This document shows positions 739 through 32,329 of a stretch of DNA of 34,160 nucleotides, one piece after another. The position numbers and the translations under genes are program-made. The DNA comes from a virus, in the IMG/VR virus record IMGVR_UViG_3300045936_000120, positions 1-34,160 of that record; one strand, written 5' to 3'. The notes beneath the pieces are model-generated. The model saw only the letters and a program-made list of their open reading frames with translations. It ran no database searches and was not told where the DNA came from. Each line of letters begins with the position of its first letter. The stretch's first letter is position 1.

Positions 739-867
739 ACTCAGCGATCAGCTTTCAGCGCTCAGCTGACGACACTTACCGTGGATACTGACTTATCCCA
801 TGGGATAAGAGATGCAACCAGCGGGTCTGGTCAAGAGCTGACTGCTGATAGCTGAAAGCTGACAGCT
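739..867. repeat. Heptamer array, F4 / R4, with palindromic element in its loop
   Basis: Four NNTCAGC units (739-766) and four GCTGANN units plus GCT (837-867) flank a 70-bp loop that holds the 18-bp palindrome at 792-809. The array fills the gap between the tail-tip gene and the gene at 881. Confidence 0.95.
781..835. repeat. Palindromic element, copy 1
   Basis: The core CTTATCCCATGGGATAAG at 792-809 is a perfect 18-bp palindrome. The element, with its flank ending GGGTCTGGTCAA, recurs at 31808-31880 after the tape-measure gene. Read in one frame both copies give a similar peptide (TDLSHG-I/V-R ... GSGQ), so a short translated product cannot be excluded. Function unknown. Confidence 0.75.
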
Positions 868-880
868 TCTTCAAAAAACC

Positions 881-1207
881 ATGCGTTTCGAGCACAAACT
901 ATCGCCTTCCGTCGCCGCCTATGCGCAGCGGGCGCGGCAGCAGCTCGCCGAGGTGCGGCGGGAATACCTCGTCGCCCTCGGTCTCGCGAAAGAGCACGAA
1001 CTGCGCGGCGAGATCCTGCGCCAGGCGCTTTCGCAGCAGTTGGCGCTCGTGCAGGAAAGCGAAGGCCTGCCGCAGCCGGCCGGCCAGTATGAGCTGAGCG
1101 AGGATGGCCGGTCCTTGGTAGGTGAGATACCGGATGAAATGGGAGAGAGCAATCAGCATTCAGCGGTCAGCGATCAGCTAAACCGCAAGCTGAATGCTGA
1201 GCGCTGA
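881..1207 (+). CDS. Small helical protein of the tail-end region, unknown function
   Basis: A 108-residue protein starting ATG at 881, just after an array and without a clear Shine-Dalgarno sequence. Residues 5-75 are Arg/Glu/Gln/Leu-rich and predicted to be a long helix or coiled coil (AYAQRARQQLAEVRREYLVA). Residues from about 90 on are encoded by the heptamer array at 1151-1219: the forward arm gives QHSAVSDQ and the stop TGA is supplied by the reverse arm (NAER then stop). The natural C-terminus was therefore probably near GEIPDEMGES. Lying between tail-tip and fibre-like genes it may be a minor tail or chaperone protein, but nothing in the sequence proves it. Confidence 0.65.
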   Translation: MRFEHKLSPSVAAYAQRARQQLAEVRREYLVALGLAKEHELRGEILRQALSQQLALVQESEGLPQPAGQYELSEDGRSLVGEIPDEMGESNQHSAVSDQLNRKLNAER

Positions 1208-1219
1208 GCGCTGAGAGCT
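1151..1219. repeat. Heptamer array, F4 / R4, partly coding
   Basis: Four forward units 1151-1178, spacer TAAACCGCAA, four reverse units 1189-1216 plus GCT. It encodes the C-terminal tail and stop codon of the preceding gene and ends six bases before the next ATG at 1225. Confidence 0.95.
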
Positions 1220-1224
1220 AAAAC

Positions 1225-2076
1225 ATGGATAGTCCTTTCATGCTCCGTCCGATCGTCCGCGCGGCACCGCCCGGCTTCCCGCCCGACGTCGCGCCGAACC
1301 AGATCATCTACGCGGCGCACATCAACGCGATCCGTGATTCGGTCGCGGTGTGGCCTGGGAATGTGAGCGGGAATGGCAAGACGCTCCATAGCGTTGGATC
1401 AATCGGCATCGGCACCGCGTCGCCGGAAGGACCGCTTCATTTGGCCGGCGTGAATCCCATGATTGTCATTCGGGATCAAGCCAACCGTAAGGGTAGGATC
1501 GACATGAACGGCAATGTGCTGCGTGTCGGAGAGCTGTCTGTCAGCGATATTGTCGGGATCGATTTAGCGACGGCGAATGTCGGCATCGGCACGATGGGTC
1601 CGGGCTCGAAGCTCGATGTCGTATCCGCGGCCAGTATCGACGGCATTTCGATCACTGCGGTCAATCGAACGAGCATCTGGTTCAAGCTGACAAACGGCGT
1701 CAGCCGTAATTGGCTGTTCCAGAATGCGGTCGCGTCGGCAGATGACTTCCAGTTTCTTGCATCCCCGAGCGCGGGCGCCACGCCGACGCTTCCGGTGATG
1801 GTATTGCGGGCAGACGCCAGGGTCGGCATCGGCACGACGAACCCCGAGAGCGCCTTTCATCTAAGGGCGAATAATCCTGTGATTACGCTGGAGGATTTTG
1901 CTTCGAGCACGCGCAAAGGAAAGATCGACCTCTATTCGAATATGATCCGCTTCGGCGAATTGTTTGTGTCCGATCTGATGCAGATCGATCTGGCTGCGCT
2001 CGCCATCCGGCTGTATCTGGGCGGCGGGCTTAAAACGCTGAGCGTCGATGGAAGTGGATTTGTGAAGGCAACCTAA
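1225..2076 (+). CDS. Tail fibre-like protein with repeated VGIGT motifs
   Basis: A 283-residue protein. It carries three copies of the (I/V)GIGT-x-x-P/G-x-(S/G) motif (IGIGTASPEGPLHL, VGIGTMGPGSKLDV, VGIGTTNPESAFHL), which is typical of phage tail fibres and of proteins that end in an S74 intramolecular chaperone. No chaperone domain is present here and the protein simply stops after a beta-rich segment. Residues about 68-118 (PLHLAGVNPMIVIRD ... SDIVGIDL) and about 210-270 (AFHLRANNPVITLED ... SDLMQIDL) are clearly homologous, an internal duplication. The gene follows the tail-tip gene and one small gene, fitting a late structural role. Receptor binding is inferred. The start ATG follows the array closely; no strong ribosome site is seen. 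Confidence 0.75.
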   Translation: MDSPFMLRPIVRAAPPGFPPDVAPNQIIYAAHINAIRDSVAVWPGNVSGNGKTLHSVGSIGIGTASPEGPLHLAGVNPMIVIRDQANRKGRIDMNGNVLRVGELSVSDIVGIDLATANVGIGTMGPGSKLDVVSAASIDGISITAVNRTSIWFKLTNGVSRNWLFQNAVASADDFQFLASPSAGATPTLPVMVLRADARVGIGTTNPESAFHLRANNPVITLEDFASSTRKGKIDLYSNMIRFGELFVSDLMQIDLAALAIRLYLGGGLKTLSVDGSGFVKAT

Positions 2077-2082
2077 AAGAGC

Positions 2083-2157
2083 TTTCAGCTATCAGCGATC
2101 AGCTTTCAGCTAGCCGCAAGACGCAAGCTGAGCGCTGAATGCTGACTGCTGATCGCT
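2083..2157. repeat. Heptamer array, F4 / R4
   Basis: Forward units 2083-2110, spacer of 16 bases, reverse units 2127-2157. The variable dinucleotides of the two arms do not match one another, so the stem would be five-base-pair blocks separated by 2x2 mismatches. Followed by GGGAG and the ATG at 2169. Confidence 0.95.
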
Positions 2158-2168: not shown

Positions 2169-2456
2169 ATGACATACCAAGAATCTGCAGCACTCATGAA
2201 CGATCTGGAATTCCGCGGGCGCGTGAAAGTCGCCTGCCTCAAATACGCCGATTCGATCATGATCGAGGCGACATCAACGCCGGCGCACAATTCACGGCTC
2301 CGGTGGGCGCAGCAGGCGTTCATGCAGCCGGATCTCGTAGCGCAGCAGGTGCAGCCGCCAACCGTGATGGATCCGGCCGTGCAGTCAGCGGGCGCGGCCG
2401 TGACGGATGCGGCGCTGCAGGGGGCGGTTGAAGCGGTGGTGAATAAAACTATCTAG
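2169..2456 (+). CDS. Small conserved-looking phage protein, unknown function
   Basis: A 95-residue protein with a good ribosome site (GGGAG seven bases before the ATG), unlike many genes here. The N-terminal half (ESAALMNDLEFRGRVKVACL, then a helix ending RLRWAQQAFMQPDL) looks like small helical proteins often found beside tail genes. The C-terminal half is Ala/Val/Gln-rich. No catalytic motif, membrane segment or signal peptide is visible. It is the last rightward gene before the leftward cassette, so it probably ends the late transcript. Confidence 0.65.
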   Translation: MTYQESAALMNDLEFRGRVKVACLKYADSIMIEATSTPAHNSRLRWAQQAFMQPDLVAQQVQPPTVMDPAVQSAGAAVTDAALQGAVEAVVNKTI

Positions 2457-2457
2457 C

Positions 2458-2523
2458 GGTCAGCAGTCAGCTTTCAGCACTCAGCGCGTCTAGCTGATAG
2501 CTGAATGCTAATCGCTGAATGCT
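2458..2523. repeat. Heptamer array, F4 / R4
   Basis: Forward units 2458-2485, spacer GCGTCTA, reverse units 2493-2523, one of which is a GCTAA variant. It lies between convergent genes, where it could act as a bidirectional transcript-end hairpin. Confidence 0.95.
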
Positions 2524-3836: not shown

Positions 3837-4381
3837 TGCCCGCACTCAGAATCGTTACCGACAAGCCGGTCGAGTGCCGGCTGCTCTCAACCGACGGCGC
3901 TTCGGCGCCGTCAAACTTCGGCGTCGACCAGATCCGTTACCGGACCGATCTCGGCGATCTGTATGTGTCGCCCGCGGTCGGCGCAATCATCGCCGAGGCG
4001 ATCGCGAAGCACGGCATCGAAGCCGGGCGCGTGATCCGGGTGCTTAAGGCTACGGTGCCCTTGAGCAATGGCCGCAAGGGGATTCGGTGGTCGATTGAGC
4101 CGGTTGGAGCTGTCAGCAGTCAGCAATCAGCGGTCAGCGCATCAGCTCCGGTTGCCGTGCCGGTCGAGATCGACCGGAAACCGCCGCAGCCTGCGCCCGC
4201 AGCTCGCCCGCAGTGGGCCGATGTCCTGCTGGCGCAAACGAACCTGCTGGCGGACGTCTATGCCGCTGCGGTGGCGCATTCTTCGGCCACGCACGGCAAC
4301 GCCGTTCGCCCTGAAGACGTTCGGGCCATTATGACAACCGCTTTTATCAATCTGTCGAAGGGAATCAATCATGCAGCCTAA
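3836..4381 (+). CDS. Early two-domain protein with heptamer-encoded linker, unknown function
   Basis: A 181-residue protein. Residues 1-90 form a compact beta-rich domain (YRTDLGDLYVSPAVGAIIAE), and residues 128-181 form a helical domain (WADVLLAQTNLLADVYAAAV). Between them lies a Ser/Ala/Pro-rich linker, part of which (SSQQSAVSASA) is encoded by forward heptamers at 4111-4146. The forward arm is stop-free in every frame, so the insertion is tolerated. The arrangement, a small folded domain, flexible linker and C-terminal helices, recalls phage DNA-binding accessory proteins encoded beside a RecB/Cas4-like nuclease, but no family is certain. Confidence 0.75.
   Translation: MPALRIVTDKPVECRLLSTDGASAPSNFGVDQIRYRTDLGDLYVSPAVGAIIAEAIAKHGIEAGRVIRVLKATVPLSNGRKGIRWSIEPVGAVSSQQSAVSASAPVAVPVEIDRKPPQPAPAARPQWADVLLAQTNLLADVYAAAVAHSSATHGNAVRPEDVRAIMTTAFINLSKGINHAA
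4111..4146. repeat. Heptamer run, F5, inside a coding sequence
   Basis: Five forward units, the last one eight bases long (GCATCAGC). Only the stop-free orientation is present. Confidence 0.95.
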
Positions 4382-5626: not shown

Positions 5627-6106
5627 ATGAACAGCAGCAAAATGATTGCGCTCGCAGTGTGCGGCGCCGTATTCACAACCAGCATGTACGCCGGCGTCGG
5701 CGGCAAAGAGGCCGCTTATCGCGGCGGTTCCATTAACTCGATCAAAGAGGGCCGCGAGGCGAAGATGATCTTCGATGAGAAGGTCGCGCGCTTCGAAGGT
5801 TTGCAGATTCCGTATGAGGGCATCGAATCGATCGAGTACGGCCAGAACGCCGGGCGGCGCATCGGCGCGGCGGCGGCGCTGACCGTATTGGCCGGGCCGA
5901 TCGGGTTGCTCGCGCTCGCGTCGAAGAAAAAGAAGCACATGGTCAGTTTGACGTGGAAGGATCAGGGCGGCGTCGCCCAAGCGGCAGTGTTTGAGTTCGG
6001 CAAGGATTCCTACCGCGCGGCGCTCGCGACGTTTGAATCGAAGTCAGGCAAGCAGGTCGAGTATCAGGATAAGGATGCTTCAAAGCAGATGGGCGGCGGA
6101 AAGTAG
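5627..6106 (+). CDS. Secreted or periplasmic host-type protein (possible moron)
   Basis: A 159-residue protein with AAAAGG seven bases before its ATG. Residues 1-22 are a signal peptide (KMIALAVCGAVFTTSMYAG). The mature part has a beta-rich domain (GREAKMIFDEKVARFEG ... IPYEGIESIEYGQNAGRR), a hydrophobic hairpin around residues 84-105 (AAAALTVLAGPIGLLALASK) that may enter or lie on the membrane, and a C-terminal strand-helix pair ending GKQVEYQDKDA. I recall proteins of this pattern mainly from Acidobacteriota, which points to the host group (memory-based, not searched). It is followed at once by a terminator, so it is its own unit, as is usual for lysogenic-conversion genes. Confidence 0.7.
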   Translation: MNSSKMIALAVCGAVFTTSMYAGVGGKEAAYRGGSINSIKEGREAKMIFDEKVARFEGLQIPYEGIESIEYGQNAGRRIGAAAALTVLAGPIGLLALASKKKKHMVSLTWKDQGGVAQAAVFEFGKDSYRAALATFESKSGKQVEYQDKDASKQMGGGK

Positions 6107-6107
6107 C

Positions 6108-6135
6108 TTTCAGCGGTCAGCTATCAGCTTTCAGC
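6108..6135. repeat. Heptamer run, F4
   Basis: Four forward units between the stop codon of the secreted protein and its terminator hairpin; no reverse arm directly follows. Confidence 0.95.
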
Positions 6136-6767: not shown

Positions 6768-6837
6768 TTTTAGCGATTAGCTTTCAGCGATCAGCCTCGC
6801 ACGTTTAGCTGAATGCTGAGTGCTGACCGCTGATTGC
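6768..6837. repeat. Heptamer array in the leader of the DUF5681-like gene
   Basis: Forward units 6768-6795 (two TTAGC variants), spacer CTCGCACGTTTA, reverse units 6808-6837. It is only about nine bases from the minus-strand ATG at 6759. Confidence 0.9.
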
Positions 6838-6863
6838 CTTTGGGTTTCCACACCCTTTCACCT

Positions 6864-7264: not shown

Positions 7265-7801
7265 ATGATGAATTCCGAGCAGTATCTCACGAAAGCGGTT
7301 GCGGCGAAGCAGCTCGATCTGAGCGTGCGGCGCGTGATGGAAATGTCGGCCGCCGGGCGCCTTCCGCGGCACAAGCGGTTCGATCCGGCGACGCAGCGGG
7401 AAGCGGTCATGTTCCGGGCGGCCGACGTGGCGAAGCTCAAAGCCGAAAAGACGCCGCGGCCGGTCGATTTGCCGGCATTGCCCGAACCGGCGGCTAGCGG
7501 GATCTCCACTATGGTGGATCGCATCGAACGATCCGCATCGGCAATTGTGCGGGCGGCTTCCGTTCCGCCGCCTTCTCGGCCCTGGCTCACGCTCGCCGAG
7601 GCCGCCGAGTACTCCGGGCTACCCGAAAGCTTCCTGCATGCGATGATCGACCAAGGCACCTTGCCCGCGCTCGACGTCGGCGTCCGTCCGGGTGGGCGGT
7701 ATCGTGTCCGGCGCTCGGATCTTGATGGAATTGAAGGTACTAAGCGATCAGCAGTCAGCGATCAGCAGTCAGCTACGTTGGTGCGCACCAGCGCAAAATA
7801 A
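7265..7801 (+). CDS. Protein with two excisionase/MerR-like helix-turn-helix domains
   Basis: A 178-residue protein starting at ATG 7265 (a second ATG follows at once); an upstream TTG would place the start inside the duplicated hairpin and is rejected. Domain 1, residues 1-50 (YLTKAVAAKQLDLSVRRVME ... GRLPRHKRFD), and domain 2, residues about 104-158 (WLTLAEAAEYSGLPESFLHA ... GGRYRVRRSDLD), both have the winged HTH pattern of excisionase-family DNA-binding domains. A Pro-rich linker joins them. The natural end is probably near RRSDLDGIEG; the last 20 residues come from forward heptamers (7746-7773). It could be an excisionase-like or small-terminase-like DNA binder; no integrase is present. 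Confidence 0.75.
   Translation: MMNSEQYLTKAVAAKQLDLSVRRVMEMSAAGRLPRHKRFDPATQREAVMFRAADVAKLKAEKTPRPVDLPALPEPAASGISTMVDRIERSASAIVRAASVPPPSRPWLTLAEAAEYSGLPESFLHAMIDQGTLPALDVGVRPGGRYRVRRSDLDGIEGTKRSAVSDQQSATLVRTSAK
7746..7773. repeat. Heptamer run, F4, coding
   Basis: Four forward units in the 3' end of the HTH gene, giving KRSAVSDQQSAT in the protein. Confidence 0.95.
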
Positions 7802-7901
7802 GGGTTCGTGAAAGACTGATAAGTGTTGATATCATGCTTTGACGACGTTAGTTGGGCTGTTTTTAGGCTTTGGGTAGGGCAGGGAAGTGGTTTGTGGAAG
7901 C

Positions 7902-7930
7902 AGTCAGCGATCAGCGGGTCAGCAATCAGC
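7902..7930. repeat. Heptamer run, F4, beside the leftward J-like gene
   Basis: Forward units with one eight-base unit (GGGTCAGC). The end of the leftward gene at 7926 reaches into it. Confidence 0.9.
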
Positions 7931-8541: not shown

Positions 8542-9807
8542 ATGTCTGCAACCAGCACACACAGTTTACCACGCGACCGTTCCAATCAGAGTAGTTTTTC
8601 TGCGAATTTTCAACGCAGCCGCCGTCATCAACATCGCTATGGTCCGCCGCCCGAGCTGGCTGATGCTCCACTGAATCCGCTAATCGGACTGCGTCGGTTT
8701 ATCGACGATACGCCTCTCGTCGATGGACACATGATTCCGGCGAAGATCGGCGCGTATTTGGCCCGGCTTGCGGAACTCGCTCACGGTTACGGCGTCTGTA
8801 CGGTCTCTGTCGAGCATCTTGCCGTCAAGGGCCACAGATGCGAGCGGACGATCAAGCGTCACACGAAGTATTTGCGCGAACGCTACCTGATCACCGTCAA
8901 TCCGCGATTGCGCGAAAACGGAAGCTGCACGACCAATGAAATCCGCATCAGCTGGGATAATCCCTTTTTTGACAAACATCTTCGAAATCGTTGTGTGGCC
9001 GAAACTTCCGCCTCCGGTACAGTGACAAAAGAGTCACCCCCAGACGAGTCTACTGTGGCTATGGATGGGTGTCAGTCTCCTTCGTTGGTGGAAGAGAAAC
9101 TGACCGACCCGAAAACCGAGCCGATCCATGAAACCAAACAACAACCGCCCAATAAGGCGCAATTGTTTGATAACGTATATTCTGAAAATGCCGCCGAAAC
9201 ACCAATAAAAACGCCTGTTTTCGAGCCCGACGTCCAGCACGTCCAAGCCTTCCGGCAAACCCTCGCCAACTGGTTCGGCGTCGCCGTGTCGTTCCAGACA
9301 ACGCTGTGGCTGTTGTGCTTCATGACCGTGCGGCGCTGGAATATCCGCGCATTCCTGTGCGATGTCGACCACAACCACAAGCCGCGCCTGTTCCACTCGC
9401 AGGACGCCGCCTGGCGCTTTATGGCCGCCGATTACCTATCGCGCGGCCCCACGCTCGAATCCTATCCGCCGGCAAAACGCGACACGCAAACGGTTGCGCC
9501 GATGGAGCAGTCAGCGATCAGCGTTCAGCAATCAGCCGAGCATCCGCCGCCGGAATCGCCGCCAGTGAGGCCGAAACGTATGACGCAAATATCATCGGGT
9601 GTTCTGAAATTCGTCGCGCCGCCTGCATCGTCCGAGCGCATCGCCGAACTATGCGCCGAGGCCGGAATTACCGAGGATCAATTGATTCGATGGATGCGGA
9701 AGAGGAGGGATGACGGCTATGCGGGATATCAGCCGCCAATGTGGCCGCCTGGCGAAAAGCAGGTGAGGCAGATGATTCGCGAGTATGGCGATGCGCATCC
9801 GGGCTAA
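8542..9807 (+). CDS. Replication initiator-like protein with winged-helix domain
   Basis: About 421 residues from ATG 8542 (a TTG two codons upstream is also possible). Residues about 60-130 (LVDGHMIPAKIGAYLARLAE, HGYGVCTVSVEHLAVKGHRC, ERTIKRHTKYLRERYLITVN) look like an HTH_36-type winged helix found in plasmid and phage replication proteins. A low-complexity linker (about 155-230) follows, then a second folded part with an AFRQTLANWFGV helix and a Trp-rich core. A forward heptamer run (9509-9536) encodes EQSAISVQQSAEH in another linker. A C-terminal helical domain (RIAELCAEAGITEDQLIRWM) recalls helicase-loader tails. The stop overlaps that of the convergent zinc gene. Role in replication is inferred. 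Confidence 0.65.
   Translation: MSATSTHSLPRDRSNQSSFSANFQRSRRHQHRYGPPPELADAPLNPLIGLRRFIDDTPLVDGHMIPAKIGAYLARLAELAHGYGVCTVSVEHLAVKGHRCERTIKRHTKYLRERYLITVNPRLRENGSCTTNEIRISWDNPFFDKHLRNRCVAETSASGTVTKESPPDESTVAMDGCQSPSLVEEKLTDPKTEPIHETKQQPPNKAQLFDNVYSENAAETPIKTPVFEPDVQHVQAFRQTLANWFGVAVSFQTTLWLLCFMTVRRWNIRAFLCDVDHNHKPRLFHSQDAAWRFMAADYLSRGPTLESYPPAKRDTQTVAPMEQSAISVQQSAEHPPPESPPVRPKRMTQISSGVLKFVAPPASSERIAELCAEAGITEDQLIRWMRKRRDDGYAGYQPPMWPPGEKQVRQMIREYGDAHPG
9509..9536. repeat. Heptamer run, F4, coding
   Basis: Four forward units in frame in the replication gene, in a Pro-rich linker. Confidence 0.95.
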
Positions 9808-10214: not shown

Positions 10215-10678
10215 GGAGCTATCATAGCGGATCGCAGCCGCTCGAGCGCTTCATCGGACGCCGAGTCAAGCAACCGCGCGAGCTCGGATACATCGGGTGG
10301 TGGGGCAGGTGGCTCGCCCGGTGAGCCTGGCGGCTGATCGCTGACCGCTGACGGCTTCTGCCATGCCGGCCGCATGCGCCGCGTCCGCCAGGCGAGCATG
10401 CCGGACATGCGGCGCTCGAGCGGCGAGCGCTTCCGGTTTGAGGCCTGCACGGCCTTCGCGCCGGCGCGATGGAACTCGAGCGCCTCATCCGGCGTCATCT
10501 TCGCGATGCGCCGTTTGCCGAGCGCGACCGCCGCGGGATCCTTGCAGGATCCCGGGCGATCAGCGTTCAGCTTACAGCTTTCAGCTTCGGACGTTGGCTG
10601 ATTGCTGAATGCTGACCGCTGACCGCTCTTTTCCACAGCACGATGATACATGCTCGAAAACTGAATTTCTAGTGTCAT
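10184..10678 (-). CDS. Basic protein with AAVALG motif, interrupted by in-frame arrays
   Basis: About 164 residues from ATG 10678; the frame is open further, to 10774, and the true start could even lie after the array. The folded part is DPAAVALGKRRIAKMTPDEA, then LEFHRAGAKAVQASNRKR, a relative of the 47-residue protein at 3082-3225. Before it lies a whole translated heptamer array (10558-10627), in which the TGA expected in this frame is TGT (Cys). A second run of heptamers (10333-10356) encodes PSAVSDQP in a Pro-rich linker before a C-terminal acidic helix (ELARLLDSASDEALERLRSA). Function unknown. Confidence 0.55.
   Translation of the reverse strand: MTLEIQFSSMYHRAVEKSGQRSAFSNQPTSEAESCKLNADRPGSCKDPAAVALGKRRIAKMTPDEALEFHRAGAKAVQASNRKRSPLERRMSGMLAWRTRRMRPAWQKPSAVSDQPPGSPGEPPAPPPDVSELARLLDSASDEALERLRSAMIAPWNSVTNSVR
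10333..10356. repeat. Heptamer run, R3 on the plus strand, coding on minus
   Basis: Three GCTGANN units plus GCT. For the minus-strand gene this is the stop-free orientation. Confidence 0.9.
10534..10554. repeat. Perfect hairpin beside the array
   Basis: CGGGATCC and GGATCCCG form an eight-base-pair stem with the loop TTGCA, next to the array at 10558 and inside the leftward gene. Confidence 0.6.
10558..10627. repeat. Heptamer array, F4 / R4, translated on the minus strand
   Basis: Plus-strand forward units 10558-10585 include TTACAGC in place of a TCAGC unit; reverse units 10597-10627. Read leftward, that base change turns TGA into TGT in the frame of the gene at 10184-10678. Confidence 0.95.
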
Positions 10679-11304: not shown

Positions 11305-11706
11305 GTGTCAACCTCCCCCAAAAAGTTGTTACTCGTCTGCGACTCCATGTCGAGTCTCGTCGTCGCCAAAGTCTCGGCGCGCAATGCCGCCCGCATGCTC
11401 GAGCTCGGCCAGGTCCGGCTTGATCAGGAGGGGCATCTGCGCGTAGCAGTGCCCGACCGGGCGCACGAGCATCCTTGCCGCACGCGCATCTCATCGGGCG
11501 GCGTGCTCGCCGCGCTCGGCATGTCGCAGATTTATACGGCGAAGGATGAGCGCGGCAAGGTCGCGGGCTTCAAGCGCATCTACCCCGAAGACCGCGGCTT
11601 CTTCAATCTCGCGACCAATCCCGGCAACTGGATAATAGCGATCAGCTTTCAGCTTATTAGCAGTCAGCTATCAGCGATCAGCTATCAGCTTTGCGTTTTT
11701 GGCTGA
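11305..11706 (+). CDS. Unknown protein with heptamer-encoded C-terminus
   Basis: A 133-residue protein starting GTG at 11305, with GGAG about nine bases upstream; ATG at 11347 is a weaker option. The core (VAKVSARNAARMLELGQVRL ... RISSGGVLAALGMSQIYTAK ... YPEDRGFFNLA) is a mixed alpha/beta domain I do not recognise. After NPGNWIIAIS the protein is encoded by forward heptamers (FQLISSQLSAISYQL) and stops at the first TGA of the reverse arm. It opens the rightward run that leads to terminase, so a small-terminase or regulatory role is conceivable but unsupported. Confidence 0.65.
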   Translation: MSTSPKKLLLVCDSMSSLVVAKVSARNAARMLELGQVRLDQEGHLRVAVPDRAHEHPCRTRISSGGVLAALGMSQIYTAKDERGKVAGFKRIYPEDRGFFNLATNPGNWIIAISFQLISSQLSAISYQLCVFG

Positions 11707-11768
11707 ATGCTGACCGCTGATTGCTGATTGCTGACCGCTGAAATGCTGACCGCTGACTGCTGAAAGCT
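11640..11768. repeat. Large heptamer array, F / R8
   Basis: Six forward units with a TTATTAGC irregular unit, the loop TTTGCGTTTTTG, then about nine reverse units, one of them eight bases long (GCTGAAAT). It ends at the ATG of the next gene (11769). Confidence 0.95.
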
Positions 11769-13886: not shown

Positions 13887-13887
13887 C

Positions 13888-19564: not shown

Positions 19565-19565
19565 C

Positions 19566-21596: not shown

Positions 21597-21605
21597 TAGG
21601 AAAGC

Positions 21606-21666
21606 GATCAGCAGTCAGCGGTCAGCAATCAGCTAGCTGAATGCTGAAAGCTGATCGCTGAAAGCT
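21606..21666. repeat. Heptamer array with the shortest loop, F4 / R4
   Basis: Forward 21606-21633, spacer TA, reverse 21636-21666. With the two-base spacer it is the most compact inverted repeat in the window and follows the capsid gene, where a terminator or mRNA-stability hairpin would be useful. Confidence 0.95.
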
Positions 21667-22066: not shown

Positions 22067-22200
22067 AGCCGAAGAAAAAACGGAAACCCGAGCGGACGCC
22101 GCAGAATAAGGCGATGGAAGCGCCGGAAAACAAAGCTGTCAGCTATCAGCAATCAGCGGTCAGCAAGCCGCCGTTGCGTCCGCCTGTTCGCAAAAGCTGA
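22063..22200 (+). CDS. Short basic protein with array-derived segment
   Basis: A 45-residue protein: MKPKKKRKPERTPQNKAMEA, PENKAVSYQQSAVS, KPPLRPPVRKS. The middle is encoded by forward heptamers (22137-22164) and the stop is the first TGA of the reverse arm. It is coupled to the previous gene by ATGA. Strongly basic, no fold; could be a C-terminal piece of its neighbour split by a frameshift. Confidence 0.45.
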   Translation: MKPKKKRKPERTPQNKAMEAPENKAVSYQQSAVSKPPLRPPVRKS

Positions 22201-22226
22201 AAGCTGATCGCTGAAAGCTGAATGCT
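22137..22226. repeat. Heptamer array, F4 / R4, coding on one side and giving a start on the other
   Basis: Forward units 22137-22164 (coding), 31-base spacer, reverse units 22196-22226. The final GCTGAAT-GCT supplies the ATG at 22222. Confidence 0.95.
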
Positions 22227-23103
22227 TCTGGCTGTCGATCTTTTTTGCGGTTTAGGCGGCTGGGCCGAAGGATTCATCGCCGAAGGCTACGACGTGATCG
22301 GATTCGATATCGAACGCCGCCCGTATCCGGCGCAACTCGTGCTTCAGGATGTGTTGACGCTCCACGGCTCGCAATTCCGCAATGCCGCCTGCATCGTCGC
22401 CTCGCCGCCCTGCCAGGCGTACTCCTACCGCGCCATGCCGTGGAAGAAAGCCAAGGCGCTGCCGCCGCCCGATAACGCGCTGTTCGAGGCGTGCTTCCGC
22501 ATTCAGCGTGAGGCGTCGGAAGCCGCTGGGCGCTACATCCCGATGGTGGTCGAGAACGTCTGCGGCGCCCAGCGGTGGGTGGGTTCGGCCAAGTGGCACT
22601 ACGGCAGCTATTACCTGTGGGGCGATGTGCCGGCGCTGATGCCGTATGCCCACTCGAAGACGATGAAGGCTACTGGACCACAGAATGCCAACGGAGAGCT
22701 GCATCGGCAAAGTATCAACAAGATGAGAGACTGCCTGAAAAACGACTGGCTCAAGGTGAACGGCTTCAACTTCCACGAGCACGAGAAGACCGGCAAGCCG
22801 GGCCGCTCGTTTCAGTCGGCGGCGGTCGAGAATACGGGCGTCAAGGTGGCTGGCCTGAACTGGAGCGGATCGGACAAGCCGGGCTACAAGGCCCAGGCGT
22901 TCAATTCGACGGCGGAAGCGCGGATGCGGGACACCAGCGACGGTCTGAAATTCGGCGGCGGCTGGTGGCACGACGCGACAAACAACCTGATCCGCAAGGC
23001 GTCCTCGCGCTCCAGTGCCCGCAAGCAGGCATCCGCGCTGATCGCCAAGATTCCGTTTCCGCTCGCGGCGCATATCGCCCGCGTTTTCAAAGCTGAATGC
23101 TGA
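22222..23103 (+). CDS. DNA (cytosine-5) methyltransferase-like protein
   Basis: A 293-residue protein. Motif I is AVDLFCGLGGWAEGF (SAM binding), motif IV is ASPPCQAYSY with the catalytic Cys at residue 64, and motif VI is VVENV (Glu 111). Family enzymes transfer a methyl group to C5 of cytosine. It is shorter than most and the QxRxR motif VIII is not evident, so target recognition may be unusual or activity limited. The ATG and the stop (FKAEC, then TGA) both come from heptamers. It sits between capsid and connector genes, so it is likely expressed late, possibly to protect DNA before packaging. Confidence 0.85.
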   Translation: MLLAVDLFCGLGGWAEGFIAEGYDVIGFDIERRPYPAQLVLQDVLTLHGSQFRNAACIVASPPCQAYSYRAMPWKKAKALPPPDNALFEACFRIQREASEAAGRYIPMVVENVCGAQRWVGSAKWHYGSYYLWGDVPALMPYAHSKTMKATGPQNANGELHRQSINKMRDCLKNDWLKVNGFNFHEHEKTGKPGRSFQSAAVENTGVKVAGLNWSGSDKPGYKAQAFNSTAEARMRDTSDGLKFGGGWWHDATNNLIRKASSRSSARKQASALIAKIPFPLAAHIARVFKAEC

Positions 23104-23122
23104 TAGCTGATCGCTGAAAGCT
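23092..23122. repeat. Heptamer run, R4
   Basis: Reverse units only; gives the last codons and TGA of the methyltransferase. Confidence 0.95.
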
Positions 23123-23126: not shown

Positions 23127-23702
23127 ATGAAGTTCCTTGACGTCCAGGTCATCACGCCGCCCGCGAATCCCGAAGTGGTCACGGTCGAGGAATACATCGA
23201 CCACGCGCGGCTCAACGGGCTGACGGTTGATGTGCAGCCGACTTTGATTGTCCGCCAGCTCGACGCCGCAACGCAGCGCTGCGAGCTGTACCTGCGCCGC
23301 TCGCTTCTCACCCAGGAATTGAAGGCGCTGTTCGTGCCGGACGGCAAAAACTGCGCCTGCGCGAAGGAAATGGCGCTGCCGCGCGGGCCCGTCGAATCGG
23401 TGACCGAGATCGTATCGAACGGGCAACCCGTGACGGGATATACGCTCGCCTGGAACGTCGTCACGCTTCAGGCGCCGTTGACCGCGCCGACTACGGTGCA
23501 GTTCGTCTCGGCAGGATTCGGCGATACGGGCGCGGATGTGCCGGCGCCGATCCGCGAAGGGATTTTGGAATACGCGACGACGCTCTACGAGGATCGGACC
23601 GGCGCGCGCGAGCCGAAGCATGCGGCGGCGGCGACTGGTGGGACCGTGCCGCGCGGGATTCAGGATCTGTGGCGGCCGTTTCAGTTGGAAATGAGCGGTT
23701 AG
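23127..23702 (+). CDS. Head-tail connector, HK97 gp6-like
   Basis: A 191-residue protein. The pattern EVVTVEEYIDHARLNGLTVD, LDAATQRCELYLRRSLLTQE, VESVTEIVSNGQPVTGYTLA, then TTVQFVSAGFGDTGADVPAP and IREGILEYATTLYEDR is that of gp6-like adaptor proteins, which form the ring below the portal. The stop TAG lies in a TTAGC variant of a forward heptamer. No strong ribosome site; the ATG is five bases after the preceding array. Confidence 0.82.
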   Translation: MKFLDVQVITPPANPEVVTVEEYIDHARLNGLTVDVQPTLIVRQLDAATQRCELYLRRSLLTQELKALFVPDGKNCACAKEMALPRGPVESVTEIVSNGQPVTGYTLAWNVVTLQAPLTAPTTVQFVSAGFGDTGADVPAPIREGILEYATTLYEDRTGAREPKHAAAATGGTVPRGIQDLWRPFQLEMSG

Positions 23703-23817
23703 CGATCAGCAATCAGCGCTCAGCTAGACGCGCTGAAAGCTGCAATCAGCAGTCAGCGATCAGCAGTCAGCTAAACCGCGCTGATAGCTGAAAGCTGACC
23801 GCTGACCGCTGATAGCT
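23697..23817. repeat. Double heptamer array, F4 / R1 - F4 / R5
   Basis: Two inverted-repeat units in a row: forward 23697-23724, reverse 23732-23740, forward 23744-23771, reverse 23780-23817. It looks like one array nested or duplicated beside another and ends at the next ATG. Confidence 0.95.
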
Positions 23818-24701: not shown

Positions 24702-24897
24702 AAGTCTCATGCTGCCGCGACGCGTCAAGCGGTCGACGCCGGACGATGCGGGCGTTGGCTTCCTGGTTGAGATGTCGTGCGGGCATACGATCTGGCTCGC
24801 TGTGCAGATGGACGCGGGCGCGAAGATCCGTTGCGGCGCATGCCTGAATGCGTTGGTGATTCAGATTCGTGAATTGCAGGCGGAGCAGAAGATATAG
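24682..24897 (+). CDS. Small CGH/CxxC putative zinc protein
   Basis: A 71-residue protein from GTG 24682; ATG 24709 is an alternative. The GTG start is preferred because residues 4-14 (LDESLMLPRRV) align with the N-terminus of the related protein at 12398 (IDWTLFNRRRV). VEMSCGHTIWLA and RCGACLNALVIQIRELQAE carry the presumed C, H, C, C ligands. It overlaps the previous gene by 20 bases. Function unknown. Confidence 0.6.
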   Translation: MATNLDESLMLPRRVKRSTPDDAGVGFLVEMSCGHTIWLAVQMDAGAKIRCGACLNALVIQIRELQAEQKI

Positions 24898-24898
24898 C

Positions 24899-24926
24899 GG
24901 TCAGCAATCAGCATTCAGCTTTCAGC
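24899..24926. repeat. Heptamer run, F4
   Basis: Forward units only, ending directly before TATG of the next gene. Confidence 0.95.
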
Positions 24927-24927
24927 T

Positions 24928-25635
24928 ATGACGCCGTATTACGAGCACGCGGGCATCACGATCTATCACGCGGATGCGCGTGAAGTCGTTTCCCGCATTC
25001 GAGTCGATGCTGTTATTACAGATCCGGTCTGGCCGAATTGTGAGCACGTATTTCCAGGCATCAATGCGTCCGAGGTTTTCCGCGGGACGGTTGAGCAAAT
25101 CAATGCAGACCGTATCGTTGTTCAACTCGGATGCCATTCTGACCCGCGTTTTTTGGCTGGTGTCCCGGAGCGATGGCCCTACATCCGCACTTGTTATCTG
25201 GAGTACGCCGTGAAGGGCTATCTTGGGCGCGTATTGAAAGACGCCGATGTTGCCTATGTTTTCGGCGATCCGCCGCCAGCTAAGCAAGGGGCTCACGTGC
25301 TGCCGGGATGGGTTATCGCGACAGTAGCCAATGGTGATCGTGGGTGGGGTAAAGCCGGGCGGACGACGGAGCAAGTAGAGGCTGTCGTTTCCAGGCTTGC
25401 GCATCCCGCGTCGCGGAATCTTCAGCATGTGCGATGGCTTGTGAAATGGTTCGGAGGGGACTCCGTGCTCGATCCATTCTTTGGCATTGGGACAACTGCT
25501 GTGGCGTGCAAGATTCTAGGAGTGCGCTGTGTTGGCATCGAAATCGAGGAGCGTTATTGCGAAATCGCCGCCGAGCGGTTGCGGCAAGAGGTTCTGGAAT
25601 TCACGCCGCCCGCGTTGCTGACCGCTGATTGCTGA
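24928..25635 (+). CDS. DNA N4-cytosine/N6-adenine methyltransferase
   Basis: A 235-residue protein with the beta-class motif order. The catalytic motif IV comes first, TDPVWPN (residues 31-37; the usual form is DPPY or DPPW), and the SAM-binding motif I comes late, LDPFFGIGTT (181-190), followed by GVRCVGIEIEERYCEIAAER. A second DPPP (114-117) is probably not catalytic. The Pro-to-Val change in motif IV keeps the D, W and P that matter most. The family methylates exocyclic amino groups in short DNA sites. Last residues (LLTADC) and stop come from reverse heptamers. No restriction partner is present. Confidence 0.85.
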   Translation: MTPYYEHAGITIYHADAREVVSRIRVDAVITDPVWPNCEHVFPGINASEVFRGTVEQINADRIVVQLGCHSDPRFLAGVPERWPYIRTCYLEYAVKGYLGRVLKDADVAYVFGDPPPAKQGAHVLPGWVIATVANGDRGWGKAGRTTEQVEAVVSRLAHPASRNLQHVRWLVKWFGGDSVLDPFFGIGTTAVACKILGVRCVGIEIEERYCEIAAERLRQEVLEFTPPALLTADC

Positions 25636-25647
25636 CCGCTGACAGCT
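25617..25647. repeat. Heptamer run, R4
   Basis: Reverse units only; gives the stop of the methyltransferase at 25633-25635. Confidence 0.95.
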
Positions 25648-26328: not shown

Positions 26329-26753
26329 CATCGAAAGAGCTGGTAGAAATCGCAGGCATCACGCCGCGGATGTTGCAATGGTGGATCAGGCAAGGGTTGA
26401 TCAAGCCGCGCCGCCGCCGGCCGCCCTTTGTCGGCAGGCCTGATGCATTCTGGTTCGAGGAAGCCGATGCCTTCAAGGCGCTGATCATTCGCGAGCTTCG
26501 CGTCAAGGGAATCCGGCGCGATCGCATTCGGCGCTGGAAGCTGGCGCCGCCGCAGGGCGACTACCTGCTGATCATGGGAAGCCGCATTGCCTGGACCGGT
26601 CAGCGATCGCTGATTCAAAAGCTTGAGGAGCTGAAAGCGCCTGTGATGCTGGTATCGATCTACGATCTGCGGATGGAGTTCCGGGCGGCGATGGAGCGGC
26701 TGGAGGGCGAGCGGCCCGCCGCTCTGCCGCTTGCCCGTCGGCCTGCTGCTTAG
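26325..26753 (+). CDS. MerR-type helix-turn-helix protein
   Basis: A 142-residue protein. Residues 1-60 (MTSKELVEIAGITPRMLQWW, IRQGLIKPRRRRPPFVGRPD, AFWFEEADAFKALIIRELRV) are a MerR-like winged HTH. The C-terminal half (YLLIMGSRIAWTGQRSLIQK ... APVMLVSIYDLRMEF) may be a small ligand or dimer domain. The stop TAG is at the edge of the reverse arm. An HTH regulator between tail genes is unusual; it might regulate late genes or be a packaging DNA-recognition protein. Confidence 0.7.
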   Translation: MTSKELVEIAGITPRMLQWWIRQGLIKPRRRRPPFVGRPDAFWFEEADAFKALIIRELRVKGIRRDRIRRWKLAPPQGDYLLIMGSRIAWTGQRSLIQKLEELKAPVMLVSIYDLRMEFRAAMERLEGERPAALPLARRPAA

Positions 26754-26783
26754 CTGAAAGCTGATTGCTGATCGCTGAATGCT
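26753..26783. repeat. Heptamer run, R4, supplies a start codon
   Basis: Reverse units only. GCTGAAT-GCT gives the ATG at 26779. Confidence 0.95.
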
Positions 26784-27204
26784 ACCGTTAACGGAAGTCC
26801 AGACCGCGATCTACAACGCGCTCACGCCCGCGCTTGCGCCCGTTCCGGTCATCGATCAGGCCGGGCCGAACCAGGAATACCCGTACTGCACGATCGGCGA
26901 ATTCGTGGGCGGGCATGACGATCTGCTCACCGAGCAGGCGGTCAATCTCGACGTTACGGTGCATTGCTGGTCGCGCCAACCGGGCATGCAGGAATGCCAG
27001 CAGCTCATGACGAAGGCGAAGGACGCGATTGACCGCGCCGTGCTGCCGGTGACCGGCTTTCAATGGGTCACGACGATCTGGACCTACGCGCAGACGCTGC
27101 GCGAGCTGGACGGCGAAACGCGGCACGGCATTTTGCGGTTTAGCGTGATGACGTTTAAGGAAGCTGTCAGCGTTCAGCAGTCAGCGGTCAGCTTAACGCG
27201 CTGA
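26779..27204 (+). CDS. Tail completion protein, DUF3168-like
   Basis: A 141-residue protein. LTEVQTAIYNALTPALAPVP, VIDQAGPNQEYPYCTIGEFV, LLTEQAVNLDVTVHCWSRQP and AKDAIDRAVLPVTGF ... VTTIWTYAQTLRELDGETRH, GILRFSVMTF follow the DUF3168 (lambda gpU/HK97 gp11-like) pattern, a tail terminator. The ATG is inside the preceding array. The C-terminal EAVSVQQSAVSLTR comes from forward heptamers; the natural end is probably at FSVMTFKE. Confidence 0.82.
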   Translation: MLPLTEVQTAIYNALTPALAPVPVIDQAGPNQEYPYCTIGEFVGGHDDLLTEQAVNLDVTVHCWSRQPGMQECQQLMTKAKDAIDRAVLPVTGFQWVTTIWTYAQTLRELDGETRHGILRFSVMTFKEAVSVQQSAVSLTR

Positions 27205-27237
27205 AAGCTGAAAGCTGAAAGCTGATCGCTGAAAGCT
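27165..27237. repeat. Heptamer array, F4 / R5
   Basis: Forward units 27165-27192 (coding), spacer TTAACGC, reverse units 27200-27237. Confidence 0.95.
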
Positions 27238-28327: not shown

Positions 28328-28623
28328 CGCTGCGCGAGATCGCCGTATTGATGGAAGCGCGGGATGCACGCGAAACGCGTAACGACTGGTATACCGCGCG
28401 GGTTGTCGCGATGCTCGTAGCGGTTAATTCCAAGCACGGCAAGTATGAGCCGCGAAAGTACATGATGAACGGAAAGCGCCTTCAGGAACGGGCGGAGCGC
28501 GACCGGCGCGAGCGCGAGCCGATGACGGGCGAACAGGTGCTCGCGCGATTTCGGCAGTTGGGTGTGCGGGTGATAGACAAGCGGAAAGGAGCGGTCAGCG
28601 ATCAGCAATCAGCAGTCAGCTAA
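28201..28623 (+). CDS. Tail assembly chaperone, second frame (gpT-like), reached by frameshift
   Basis: The -1 frame is open from after TAA 28198-28200 to TAA 28621-28623. From 28228 it reads APPRWTFDRWLGIWAVLRDG, CGVSASEFCNLTLREIAVLM, EARDARETRNDWYTARVVAM, LVAVNSKHGKYEPRKYMM, a strong protein sequence with the WTFDRW ... LTLREIAVLMEA pattern of gpT-like extensions. Its first start codons (TTG/ATG at 28348-28351) come too late to include that part, so a -1 shift from the upstream frame is the best explanation. No classical X-XXY-YYZ slippery site is visible; the overlap is GGCGGCGGCGAAGG-rich. The last 12 residues come from forward heptamers. Confidence 0.7.
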   Translation, partial: RSAPYEGGGEGAPPRWTFDRWLGIWAVLRDGCGVSASEFCNLTLREIAVLMEARDARETRNDWYTARVVAMLVAVNSKHGKYEPRKYMMNGKRLQERAERDRREREPMTGEQVLARFRQLGVRVIDKRKGAVSDQQSAVS

Positions 28624-28710
28624 ACTGGCGATACGCTTGTCCGGCGCGGTTCGGACTGTGGGTATCCCCAAAACGCAAAGCTGATCGCTGAAAGCTGATA
28701 GCTGAAAGCT
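28593..28710. repeat. Heptamer array, F4 / R4, with a 59-bp loop
   Basis: Forward 28593-28620 (coding), loop without protein of note, reverse 28680-28710, just before the tape-measure ATG at 28715. Confidence 0.95.
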
Positions 28711-31700: not shown

Positions 31701-31807
31701 CCGCAACTTCTCAGCAATCGGTCAGCATGAACCTCTACGGCACCGATCCCGAAGTCGTGGCCGCCCGCATCGCGCAGCAGCTCCGCTTGCAGGGGGCAAG
31801 CGGATAG
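28715..31807 (+). CDS. Tail tape-measure protein
   Basis: 1030 residues, the longest complete gene. Residues 1-60 are LWVEIGAKVDEAISAIQKFG-type helix; residues 70-230 (ALAEDLNRAHTSFTTMLGSA, LQQFAATTPFAFPDLVEAAR, VIDGITTALAQMSAKGKVSA, EEMNQLAERGVPAWRILADA) are the conserved tape-measure domain. Hydrophobic helices at about 300-375 may insert in the host membrane. Residues 380-490 hold Trp-rich repeats (GIWDSVEQKWTEVWTSIVGA and three relatives), 485-560 a Lys/Thr-rich coil, and 795-875 a Gly-rich segment. The C-terminal 150 residues are helical. It sets tail length; by the usual 0.15 nm per residue the tail would be roughly 150 nm (inference). Confidence 0.93.
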   Translation: MAGLPGAGASLGTLWVEIGAKVDEAISAIQKFGDDVGAMLDQQKTKWDKLGEVGQGMTQLGGTLTAALTVPIAGIGAASIALAEDLNRAHTSFTTMLGSADAANQMLTQLQQFAATTPFAFPDLVEAARRMMALGVESSQVLPWLTSIGNTAAAMGGGKDVIDGITTALAQMSAKGKVSAEEMNQLAERGVPAWRILADAIGIGVPEAMKLAETGAINAAQAVPAILDGMNQRFGGSMAALSQTLTGQWSNFKDQITLALIPIGQALIPALQNLLQVMQPVLQSLADAAQWFGSLPQPVQNAALAFAALAAAIGPIVLIAGQMAVAISALMPVLTAIAGAIGVSVVALGGWAIAIAAVIAALVALGTWVYSNWDQIVAFLSGIWDSVEQKWTEVWTSIVGAVTGIWEWFKGLFGSYWEPIVNFLGGIWSTLTGIWKAEWDLITGAVVAVWKWFTGLAEQVFGPAIKFLGDVWSKLTGAWNDAGKAAEEAKKKTEDLSKATTDQTAAVKTNKTEVKNLGTELGITKGKTTSAKTAMTDLGKEVETTGDKHKTAKVSVQKFNDEILLEKLRQAQTEHNKLVREIAAYEITLEKAAGKAFDLNAEWEKLTATTNLGAAAIGSINVKLPVMNSDMDTAIARTQALDGAFKTLGVTSSIEFAKVAADAAHARDIVLGSDQASDFDKKTAVYKALKAQIDAAKAAGTEIPAEQAAMLEKLKTELETKVPEMKAPFEGLATSVSTVITNFAQDISKSLWDGEMSWGEKGKSLLKSLGEAVTSSFIEPATAAIGSFIKGALADLLGGGGFGGIWDSLKGMGSAIGGIFGGGGAKPSVPSVPTGGGGAGGGLGGIMGGAGGWISGIGSAVGGALSLIGSMRTEGTLNAIEKEVRYSQIHLFYILGDLNDFFHRDWWVLYGLVLDIKSAIVDSMEPQLARAAGHIDVLKQIAENDLKVSLGAIASYTLDILTDVDHASRVLDQILLQGVAANERLDKMIATSERIAATSQQSVSMNLYGTDPEVVAARIAQQLRLQGASG

Positions 31808-31880
31808 CTTTGACCACGCCTGTCATGAATACCGACTTATCCCATGGGGTAAGAAGGGCATCCATCGGGTCTGGTCAAAG
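31808..31880. repeat. Palindromic element, copy 2, with closing stem
   Basis: CTTTGACC (31808-31815) and GGTCAAAG (31873-31880) are perfect inverted repeats 73 bases apart end to end. Between them CTTATCCCATGGGGTAAG (31836-31853) is the palindrome of copy 1 with one change. Position after the tape measure and beside a forward array. Confidence 0.75.
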
Positions 31881-31881
31881 C

Positions 31882-31902
31882 GGTCAGCTATCAGCTTTCA
31901 GC
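31882..31902. repeat. Heptamer run, F3
   Basis: Forward units at the 3' end of a leftward gene; the matching reverse run is on the far side of that gene at 32299-32329. Confidence 0.95.
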
Positions 31903-32268
31903 TTTGCGCCGTGCTTCAATCCGCTCGTGCAGCTCGCGGAAGTGGGCTTCAACCTCTTCGCCCGGAATCAACTTCACTTTGCCGCTTTTGATGTCATCAT
32001 ATCGGCGGTCCAACTCTTCGGCGATCAGATTCTTCAGGCGTAGTCCCGTTCCATCAGTTATAAGGCTGCGGCCGCACTCGCACTTATATACATGGGTCAT
32101 GCCGCCCATTTGCAGTGCGTCTAGAAGTAATTCTGCTGCGTCGTCGCTGAGCGTTGTCACGGCTCGCAGGATTTCCTTGAGGGCATCGTCATCCGTCGCA
32201 TCAGTTCCTTCGTAGATGTTTGCTTGGACCGCTTTTACGATCTCGATCGCATGAATCATGCGCTTCAT
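31891..32268 (-). CDS. Leftward protein inserted between tape measure and tail tip, unknown function
   Basis: A 125-residue acidic protein. The first 55 residues are helical (EIVKAVQANIYEGTDATDDD, ALKEILRAVTTLSDDAAELL), then a CECG knuckle and a charged helical tail (EELDRRYDDIKSGKVKLIPG, EEVEAHFRELHERIEARR). The last residues (KAES) and stop come from the array. It is opposite in direction to the tail operon and bounded by a forward arm on one side and a reverse arm on the other, so it may have entered as a cassette. No function recognised. Confidence 0.6.
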   Translation of the reverse strand: MKRMIHAIEIVKAVQANIYEGTDATDDDALKEILRAVTTLSDDAAELLLDALQMGGMTHVYKCECGRSLITDGTGLRLKNLIAEELDRRYDDIKSGKVKLIPGEEVEAHFRELHERIEARRKAES

Positions 32269-32298
32269 TGTAGCGGTTCCGTTCGTTGCAGGTTTGTA

Positions 32299-32329
32299 GC
32301 TGATCGCTGACCGCTGATTGCTGATCGCT
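32299..32329. repeat. Heptamer run, R4
   Basis: Reverse units, ending five bases before the tail-tip ATG at 32334. Confidence 0.95.

Follow-up and report, generated by a model that had tools for sequence, protein, structure and literature searches.

We think it likely that the heptad arrays scattered through this phage genome are the recognition arms that terminate small mobile elements centred on a four-helix-bundle (4HB) protein, and that the array pairs seen here are either gene-less, resembling MITEs, or carry other cargo. The 4HB protein belongs to PF05635/TIGR02436; it is the protein known as 'S23' from 23S rRNA intervening sequences (IVS) and is a relative of Avd, the accessory protein of diversity-generating retroelements. 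By the window we mean all 34,160 nucleotides of viral record IMGVR_UViG_3300045936_000120.

The original prediction was of dense arrays of a 7-base unit, NNTCAGC and its inverse GCTGANN, and these arrays are real. The window has 170 copies of TCAGC and 175 of GCTGA, and in 99 and 93 cases another copy follows at a distance of exactly 7 bases; by the same count the other scoring 5-mers reach up to 17, mostly overlapping array units, and unrelated 5-mers about 6. A three-unit heptad run, TCAGCNNTCAGCNNTCAGC, matches 121 times over both strands and not once in 100 dinucleotide-preserving shuffles, which disposes of the suspicion that random sequence would be equally dense. Runs of at least two units number 38 forward and 33 reverse and cover 2,046 bases, 6.0% of the window; those of at least three units number 31 and 28 (59 arms). 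An assembly artefact is unlikely because L309, from a different metagenome, matches the window without mismatch over its whole aligned length, arrays included. The density had been called unusual, and so it is: in Nitrospira, the genome richest in arrays shows 40 four-unit matches over 3.9 Mb, and the phage lies far above every bacterial genome examined.

The layout was also described correctly as a forward arm, a short spacer and a reverse arm. Each arm follows the formula AGC-(NN-TCAGC)n with an inverted arm facing it. The half unit that opens the arm is seen as AGCNN before 28 of 31 forward arms and as NNGCT after 25 of 28 reverse arms, and five AGC units are the usual arm size (43 of 61 arms). 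The core is constant and the NN are free. Close pairs have spacers of 2 to 59 bases, and the gene-less ones among them have the form of MITEs, short non-coding elements with inverted ends; there are also single arms and pairs 400 to 700 bases apart. Among internal NN, in the TCAGC orientation, C never comes first. This alphabet was tried as a marker of the host and rejected, as it recurs in unrelated contigs. The arrays are listed here, with F for a forward arm and R for a reverse arm.

736..867, pair F4 741-766 / R4 837-862, 70-bp insert with the CTTATCCCATGGGATAAG palindrome
1148..1219, gene-less pair F4/R4, spacer 10, overlapping the 3' end of ORF 881-1207
2080..2157, gene-less pair F4/R4, spacer 16, after the ORF ending at 2076 and before the ORF starting at 2169
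2455..2523, pair F4/R2 with a degenerate unit and one further unit
4108..4138, + strand, lone forward arm F4 within ORF 3836-4381, sole copy of the early run
6105..6135, + strand, lone forward arm F4, beginning at the ORF 5627-6106 stop codon
6195..6260, pair F3/R4
6779..6838, pair F2/R4
7743..7773, + strand, lone forward arm F4
7899..7930, + strand, forward arm F2+F2
9506..9536, + strand, lone forward arm F4
10333..10356, - strand, lone reverse arm R3
10555..10627, pair F2+1/R4
11637..11768, compound array F2, F4, R6, R3
12026..12173, pair F4/R4, 86-bp insert; in L051 the orthologous pair encloses 214 bp and its NN have changed
12320..12385, pair F3/R4
13885..14109, pair F9/R4, 128-bp insert, directly after the TerL stop codon
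14316..14346, - strand, lone reverse arm R4
15213..15302, pair F2+F3/R3
15669..15755, pair F4/R4
15862..15892, + strand, lone forward arm F4
18083..18154, pair F3/R4, following the portal gene; forward arm orthologous in L051 and L312
18257..18343, pair F4/R4
18692..18764, pair F4/R2+R2; the same junction in L316 has a 129-bp cargo ORF between the arms
18989..19061, pair F4/R2+R2 within predicted ORF 18686-19564
19563..19648, pair F1+F4/R4; the same junction in L316 has a forward arm and a remnant of the methyltransferase cargo
21603..21666, pair F4/R4, spacer 2, following the major capsid gene
22134..22226, pair F4/R4, immediately preceding a C5-methylase-like gene
23092..23122, - strand, lone reverse arm R4
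23701..23817, two pairs, F3/R1 then F4/R5; at this site the arms of L312 enclose a cargo ORF, and L310 and L311 show no arrays
24896..25647, cargo-bearing element: F4, N4/N6 DNA methyltransferase gene, R4; missing in L312
24928..25635, + strand, the cargo gene, N4/N6 DNA methyltransferase (PF01555, E 1.5e-13)
26753..26783, - strand, lone reverse arm R4
27162..27237, pair F4/R5 at the 3' end of gene 26779-27204; array-free in L310, L311 and L312
27727..27853, compound array F4, F4, R7
28590..28710, pair F4/R4, 59-bp spacer, preceding the tape-measure gene; array-free in L310 and L312
31879..32329, pair F3/R4 around 396 bp with a reverse ORF bearing an addiction-module motif

The claim that arrays sit at almost every gene junction stands in part. 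Pairs are widespread, but there are also single arms, a pair that encloses a gene (24901..25642) and incomplete junctions. Nor is placement confined to junctions, since arrays lie within or overlap predicted genes at 1153, 4113, 7748, 9511, 18697 and 18994.

Evidence that ties these arrays to a protein comes from outside the phage. The proposed search of related phages and bacteria found the same inverted arrays around PF05635/TIGR02436 genes in bacteria from over ten phyla. PF05635 is encoded in 39 of 40 array-bearing genomes and in 0 of 14 controls. For 59 4HB genes, the flank on one side is an inverted copy of that on the other (the median score is 20, and 8 in a control set of 217 ORFs; p 7e-30), and period 7 dominates in these flanks. 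An unselected test, with 4HB genes picked by gene and repeats ignored, gave inverted period-7 arrays around 18 of 20, and of 79 loci most have PF05635 as the gene enclosed by the arms. Cultured, finished plasmids have the same array-4HB-array layout, and on an Azospirillum plasmid a 4HB gene inside 23S rRNA is flanked by inverted heptads. Unit sequence correlates with 4HB phylogeny (Mantel r 0.51, permutation maximum 0.19), and NAGC arrays are confined to one 4HB clade (support 98/95); a 4HB protein of the TCAGC clade is encoded at L257 1155-1514. We believe the arrays belong to the 4HB protein, since they enclose its gene and their unit varies with its phylogeny. The suggestion that the units are sites for a heptad-reading protein thus gains support by inference, with a unit that covaries with the protein, a conserved core and free NN. 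In the literature searched, which did not extend to preprints, no paper linking PF05635 to heptad arrays was found, the Coxiella heptamer note excepted. We know of no catalytic activity for PF05635 proteins, nor is the 4HB known to us as a transposase.

In a class sample of 143 genomes PF05635 was absent from 3 of 7 array-bearing genomes, two of those three having only near-uniform satellites. A DUF559 endonuclease was considered as the owner gene, having been found inside a TCAGC site in two Nitrospira genomes. It was rejected and is read as a nested guest, since several DUF559 genes come with different inverted repeats of their own.

A bacterial parent with a 4HB gene and the same ends as the window arrays exists. 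No PF05635 gene was found in the window, so we call its arrays gene-less derivatives and not complete elements. There is likewise no 4HB gene in the reference phages, and among viral contigs only six were found, with TCGGC arrays. Host searches with TerL returned one 48% relative in 200 genomes from the order of the Hydrogenophilaceae MAG and a match of 24% among 301 genomes of the order Anaerolineales. No gene family is enriched beside the gene-less arrays.

Related phages show how the arrays behave over time. The core changed at 0 of 105 positions and the NN at 13 of 36 (p 3e-9). The proposed comparison of positions among relatives reveals both gain and loss: L308 is rich, with 46 arms of at least two units in 17 kb, L310 is sparse, with 2 in 21 kb, and L315 has 0 in 14.5 kb. 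The methyltransferase element is absent in L312 and is present as an arm-linked deletion remnant at a different junction in L316. Arrays also flank one cargo ORF shared by L312 and L316 at 87.5% identity, at a different junction in each. In Nitrospira, too, the TCAGC arrays are missing from orthologous sites of other species. Gain specific to lineages, the presence of cargo and the tie to 4HB elements favor the early idea of a selfish repeat. Between relatives that have diverged too far for a clear view of it, no duplication of the target site is visible, and no target rule emerged.

The same cargo can be read another way. The arms might be short homology (linker) sites for phage cassette exchange by recombination, whatever their origin, and it is true that arm-flanked cargo varies at one junction among relatives and recurs at others. 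However, this leaves the origin of the arms, their inverted layout, their five units and the 4HB link unexplained, and we regard it as unlikely. Such recombination is compatible with 4HB-built elements, as their by-product.

It is also improbable, in our opinion, that selection has placed the arrays at junctions purely as regulatory sites (DNA or 5'-UTR) to be bound by a heptad reader of host or phage, as proposed for TAACTGA in Beggiatoaceae. Arms frequently start at a stop codon and finish a few bases 5' of a start codon, the core is conserved while the NN drift, and translational control has been argued by MacGregor 2015 (PMC4679880). Several of the 'empty' orthologous sites in Nitrospira carry heptads of other families, which would also fit functional sites with a changing unit type. 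Against this, cargo genes are enclosed and are found elsewhere along with their arms, related phages manage without arrays, and bacterial arrays also adjoin unrelated housekeeping genes. Regulation does not predict 4HB flanking across many phyla.

Satellites that arose through slippage during replication, without a protein, are a very improbable source. Heptads are the commonest long simple repeats of many bacteria (review in PMC4679880), and uniform tracts such as (TCAGCAC)n are found in some genomes that lack PF05635. Slippage, however, predicts identical units, broad lengths and one orientation, whereas the window arrays vary at NN around a constant core, peak at five units and form inverted pairs, and between relatives it is the NN that change. 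The least probable reading is that of terminators or RNA-processing hairpins: close pairs lie between genes and fold well, as the proposed folding check found (z -5 to -8, with a hairpin of 5-bp helices and 2x2 internal loops possible), but the single arms, the widely separated pairs and the array-free relatives all speak against it, and pairing of NN across arms (19.3% of positions versus 26.4% with arms shuffled among loci) is not beyond chance, in keeping with the claim that dinucleotides do not match between arms. In region 12001-31990 none of the terminator-like sites listed falls on an array, and shuffles contain slightly more such sites; no GC-rich stem followed by a T run was found at the arrays. 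No Rfam family matches the window and no rRNA was found in it; two sub-threshold miRNA matches to arrays are at chance level.

Among the closest known systems is the 23S rRNA IVS with its S23p ORF (Leptospira, Coxiella; PF05635), which like the bacterial 4HB elements has a 4HB ORF between inverted terminal sequences. The Coxiella IVS even has tandem heptamers, GACAGAT, just 5' of the ORF (PMC4990558). The window arrays differ in lying outside rRNA, in having no 4HB ORF and in numbering dozens of copies, and IVS have so far been defined by rRNA fragmentation, not as a general heptad-ended class. REP/BIME sequences are inverted short-repeat pairs between genes, and the gene that reads them, RAYT, is flanked by those repeats; here the flanked gene is PF05635 and the arms are tandem heptads, not single palindromes. 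Like MITEs, the window elements are gene-less with inverted ends, were likely moved in trans and have an internal-deletion derivative in L316. Unlike MITEs, their ends are tandem arrays with degenerate NN, and no transposase was found. Intergenic heptad arrays are shared with Xanthomonas GGGAATC (70-75 convergent inverted pairs per genome, PMC4692102), Beggiatoaceae TAACTGA and cyanobacterial STRR, although the window unit is TCAGCNN and the papers on those families name no owner gene. The early comparison with STRR was a useful pointer, as such heptads also surround 4HB genes: units like those of published families flank 4HB genes in L400 (GGGAATA) and L324 (AACTGATAACTGA). Avd has a fold homologous to PF05635 (PMC10053308), but no reverse transcriptase, template or variable repeat is seen at the arrays.

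Five chains make up each of the homologous PDB entries 2gsc and 2rld, and five is the modal number of units per arm, so the two appear to match. A reference cited in PMC10053308 describes the 2GSC protein, whose source is XCC0516, as five four-helix bundles. A complete element consists of a forward arm (AGC-NN-TCAGC-NN-..., usually five AGC units), the 4HB gene and a reverse arm; in the window pairs the gene would have been lost or swapped for cargo, a DNA methyltransferase or small ORFs. TRAP holds repeated triplets around its ring. In a similar way a homopentameric 4HB may read one unit per subunit, with the arm, as ssRNA or ssDNA, passing round the ring. The two arms would then be brought together and the intervening segment copied or moved by an enzyme from the host, for which a reverse transcriptase is one candidate by analogy with Avd. 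The phage elements would be moved in trans by a putative host 4HB protein. Insertions would survive mainly between stop and start codons, and therefore arrays appear to be at every gene junction.

Three puzzles are joined here: the function of PF05635/S23, the nature of 23S rRNA intervening sequences and the reason for intergenic heptad arrays. On balance we favor the broader idea of a bacteria-wide class of mobile elements that lack a transposase and end in five-unit heptads, one unit for each subunit of a homopentameric Avd/S23 protein. It would explain 23S rRNA intervening sequences, many intergenic heptads (Xanthomonas, Beggiatoaceae, cyanobacteria) and phage cassettes, with one phage lineage colonised to 6% of its genome. 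The elements look like a tiny, very widespread and previously undescribed class, of which the 23S rRNA IVS is the sole part already described, and they point to mobility without a known transposase. The correspondence of protein clade to unit amounts to a simple recognition code that is open to a direct binding test. In the phage of the window the elements spread until they filled junctions and carried a methyltransferase and small genes, and an unexplained family of bacterial repeats may now have its owner gene.

The repeat unit is a heptad, TCAGCNN (inverse NNGCTGA), in which the dinucleotide NN varies. The window holds 170 copies of TCAGC and 175 of GCTGA, and 99 and 93 of these, respectively, have another copy exactly 7 bases on. 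Tandem runs (arms) of three or more units number 31 in the forward and 28 in the reverse orientation; arms of at least two units cover 6.0% of the sequence. The original prediction that this density is beyond random sequence is borne out by the three-unit pattern, with 121 matches in the window and 0 in 100 shuffles. Nor are the arrays confined to one assembly: L309, a contig assembled from a different metagenome, shows no difference from the window over its aligned length, arrays included. The half unit AGCNN precedes 28/31 forward arms and NNGCT follows 25/28 reverse arms, so a full arm is AGC-(NN-TCAGC)n; exactly five AGC units are present in 43 of 61 arms. The originally noted mismatch of NN between arms also holds, as 0.193 of NN positions in the window pair against 0.264 with shuffled partners; in 128 bacterial pairs the figures are 0.283 and 0.295. 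Close arm pairs can still fold, into a stem in which internal loops separate 5-bp helices. Between related phages the core shows 0/105 changes and NN 13/36 (Fisher p 3e-9), counted over five orthologous arm comparisons of four distinct window arms. On this alignment evidence the conserved part is the unit core within each arm, a pattern like that of a repeat read by a protein.

We believe it is very probable that the arrays belong to elements of the four-helix-bundle 'S23' protein (4HB, PF05635/TIGR02436), whose complete form is forward arm, 4HB gene, reverse arm. PF05635 is encoded by 39/40 array-bearing genomes and by 0/14 well-known controls, and in the array-bearing genomes its genes sit between inverted heptad arrays. 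The two flanks of 59 4HB genes resemble inverted copies of each other: upstream sequence compared with reverse-complemented downstream sequence gives a median score of 20, while the median of 217 control ORFs is 8 (Mann-Whitney p 7e-30), and 45 of the 59 exceed the controls' 99th percentile. Those genomes were preselected for TCAGC arrays, so the test was repeated on 20 PF05635 genes from a class-wide sample chosen without regard to repeats. Period 7 came out best for 18 of the upstream flanks and for 18 of the downstream ones, and flank similarity exceeded the controls' 95th percentile in 18 of the 20 genes. Finished plasmids of cultured Pseudanabaena, Calothrix brevissima, Nostoc and Azospirillum have 4HB arrays on both sides, and several others have one clear side. 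In Azospirillum the 4HB gene is located within 23S rRNA (Rfam LSU, 1358 bits), and thus the classical 23S intervening sequence (IVS) shares the element's architecture. At five loci on cyanobacterial plasmids the 4HB gene has a clear array upstream only, some of them in a conserved gene neighbourhood; these copies are possibly domesticated. A CRISPR locus on Pseudanabaena galeata plasmid pPg_01 has a 4HB gene between its cas6 and cas4, accompanied by long arrays of AAAGCNN type.

Units vary with the 4HB gene (TCAGCNN, TTAGCNN, TAAGCNN, GAGTACC, GTGACAA, GGTGTTG, GGGAATA and more). Array similarity correlates with 4HB protein identity (Mantel r 0.51; maximum 0.19 in 2000 permutations), and the six WWAGC and ten TCAGC arrays all belong to one 4HB clade (98/95); the array therefore goes with the protein. 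Six viral contigs with 4HB genes have mostly TCGGCNN arrays, a further unit type near the TCAGC clade.

The inverted 4+4 pattern, with half-unit borders as in the window, is present in Nitrospira, Acidobacteria, Planctomycetes, Bacteroidales, cyanobacteria, Gemmatimonadetes, Omnitrophota, Elusimicrobia, deltaproteobacteria, Chloroflexi and others. ORFs adjoining gene-less bacterial arrays are ordinary, with no enriched family in common. A second array-dense virus contig (IMGVR_UViG_3300005541_000016, 34,027 bases) has no detected similarity to window genes in the parts fetched, and its NN dialect (TA, CG, TC, TT) differs from the window's; among phages, dialects seem to be specific to the lineage.

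The window, a virus record of 34,160 bases, has the gene set of a siphophage. It contains no PF05635 gene, and nothing in the phage collection searched closely matches its first 24 kb.

Landmarks of the window
12609-13886, TerL
16565-18082, portal
19667-20362, protease
20367-21596, major capsid
24896-25647, cargo element: forward arm, N4/N6 methyltransferase, reverse arm
28715-31807, tape measure

A C5-methylase-like gene (22222-23103) has reverse arms both before and after it, and an ORF on the reverse strand, carrying an addiction-module motif, lies between arms at 31891-32268. The palindrome CTTATCCCATGGGATAAG, at 792-809 and 31826-31878 of the window and in related phage contigs L316 (1640-1685) and L312 (7989-8055), has surroundings conserved in the phage group and is likely an operator or promoter element.

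Arrays are gained and lost. Related phages with shared late genes differ sharply in load: arms of at least two units number 46 in 17 kb of L308, which is nearly identical to the window, 11 in 9.6 kb of L051, 8 in 6.4 kb of L316, 4 in 18 kb of L312 and 2 in 21 kb of L310, with none in L311 or L315. Cargo accompanies arms at several places. Between the genes corresponding to those flanking the window's methyltransferase, L312 has neither methyltransferase nor arms. L316, at junction 19564/19667, has a forward arm and the first ~30 bases of the methyltransferase gene, then a stretch of its 3' end; by its sequence this remnant is a deletion derivative, at a junction other than the window's 24896-25647. 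A small Cys/Asp-rich ORF lies between arms at the equivalents of 23702/23818 in L312 and near 18686 in L316 (87.5% identical). For one 4HB element and five gene-less pairs of Nitrospira, other species have sites without TCAGC arrays or with remnants, and some TCAGC-less sites are occupied by heptads of other families; two (L359, L371) look truly empty. Three have ACGTCTT, ACCCCTC and ACGCCTC type heptads where another species has TCAGC arrays, as if the junctions were reused or the unit type altered. At six loci a DUF559 (VSR-like endonuclease) gene has inverted repeats of its own on either side, of the CCCCCTT...AAGGGGG type, a second element analogous to the 4HB one; one in Nitrospira is nested within a TCAGC site.

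Parts of this have been described. One paper reports heptamers in the Coxiella IVS and takes a selfish-element view (PMC4990558). Xanthomonas GGGAATC inverted pairs, of role not known (PMC4692102), come from the same species as the 4HB structure 2GSC. The TAACTGA arrays of Beggiatoaceae (PMC4679880) resemble TCAGTNN arrays adjoining two of our loci (L278, L324), and Geobacter metallireducens has paired tandem hepta- and octanucleotide sites (PMC2700814). We found no paper tying heptad arrays to a 4HB gene as a general element, in a search that took in few subscription papers and no preprints. The class failed the tests that define terminators. It failed those for REP/RAYT as well, and MITE status and the IVS definition each fit it in part only. 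For these reasons we call the class categorically new, with the 23S IVS as its one described part.

How the element might work is suggested by its parts. The 4HB homologues 2gsc and 2rld have five chains each, and a title cited in PMC10053308 describes the 2GSC protein as five four-helix bundles. Arms of five units and rings of five subunits suggest that each subunit takes one unit, to which we give an even chance. A 4HB pentamer would then grip an arm in this way and bring both ends together, and a partner enzyme would move or copy the segment between the arms. The kinship of 4HB with Avd, the DGR accessory protein, suggests by analogy a reverse transcriptase as candidate partner. Since the window phage has no 4HB gene, its arrays would have moved in trans, which we consider somewhat probable.
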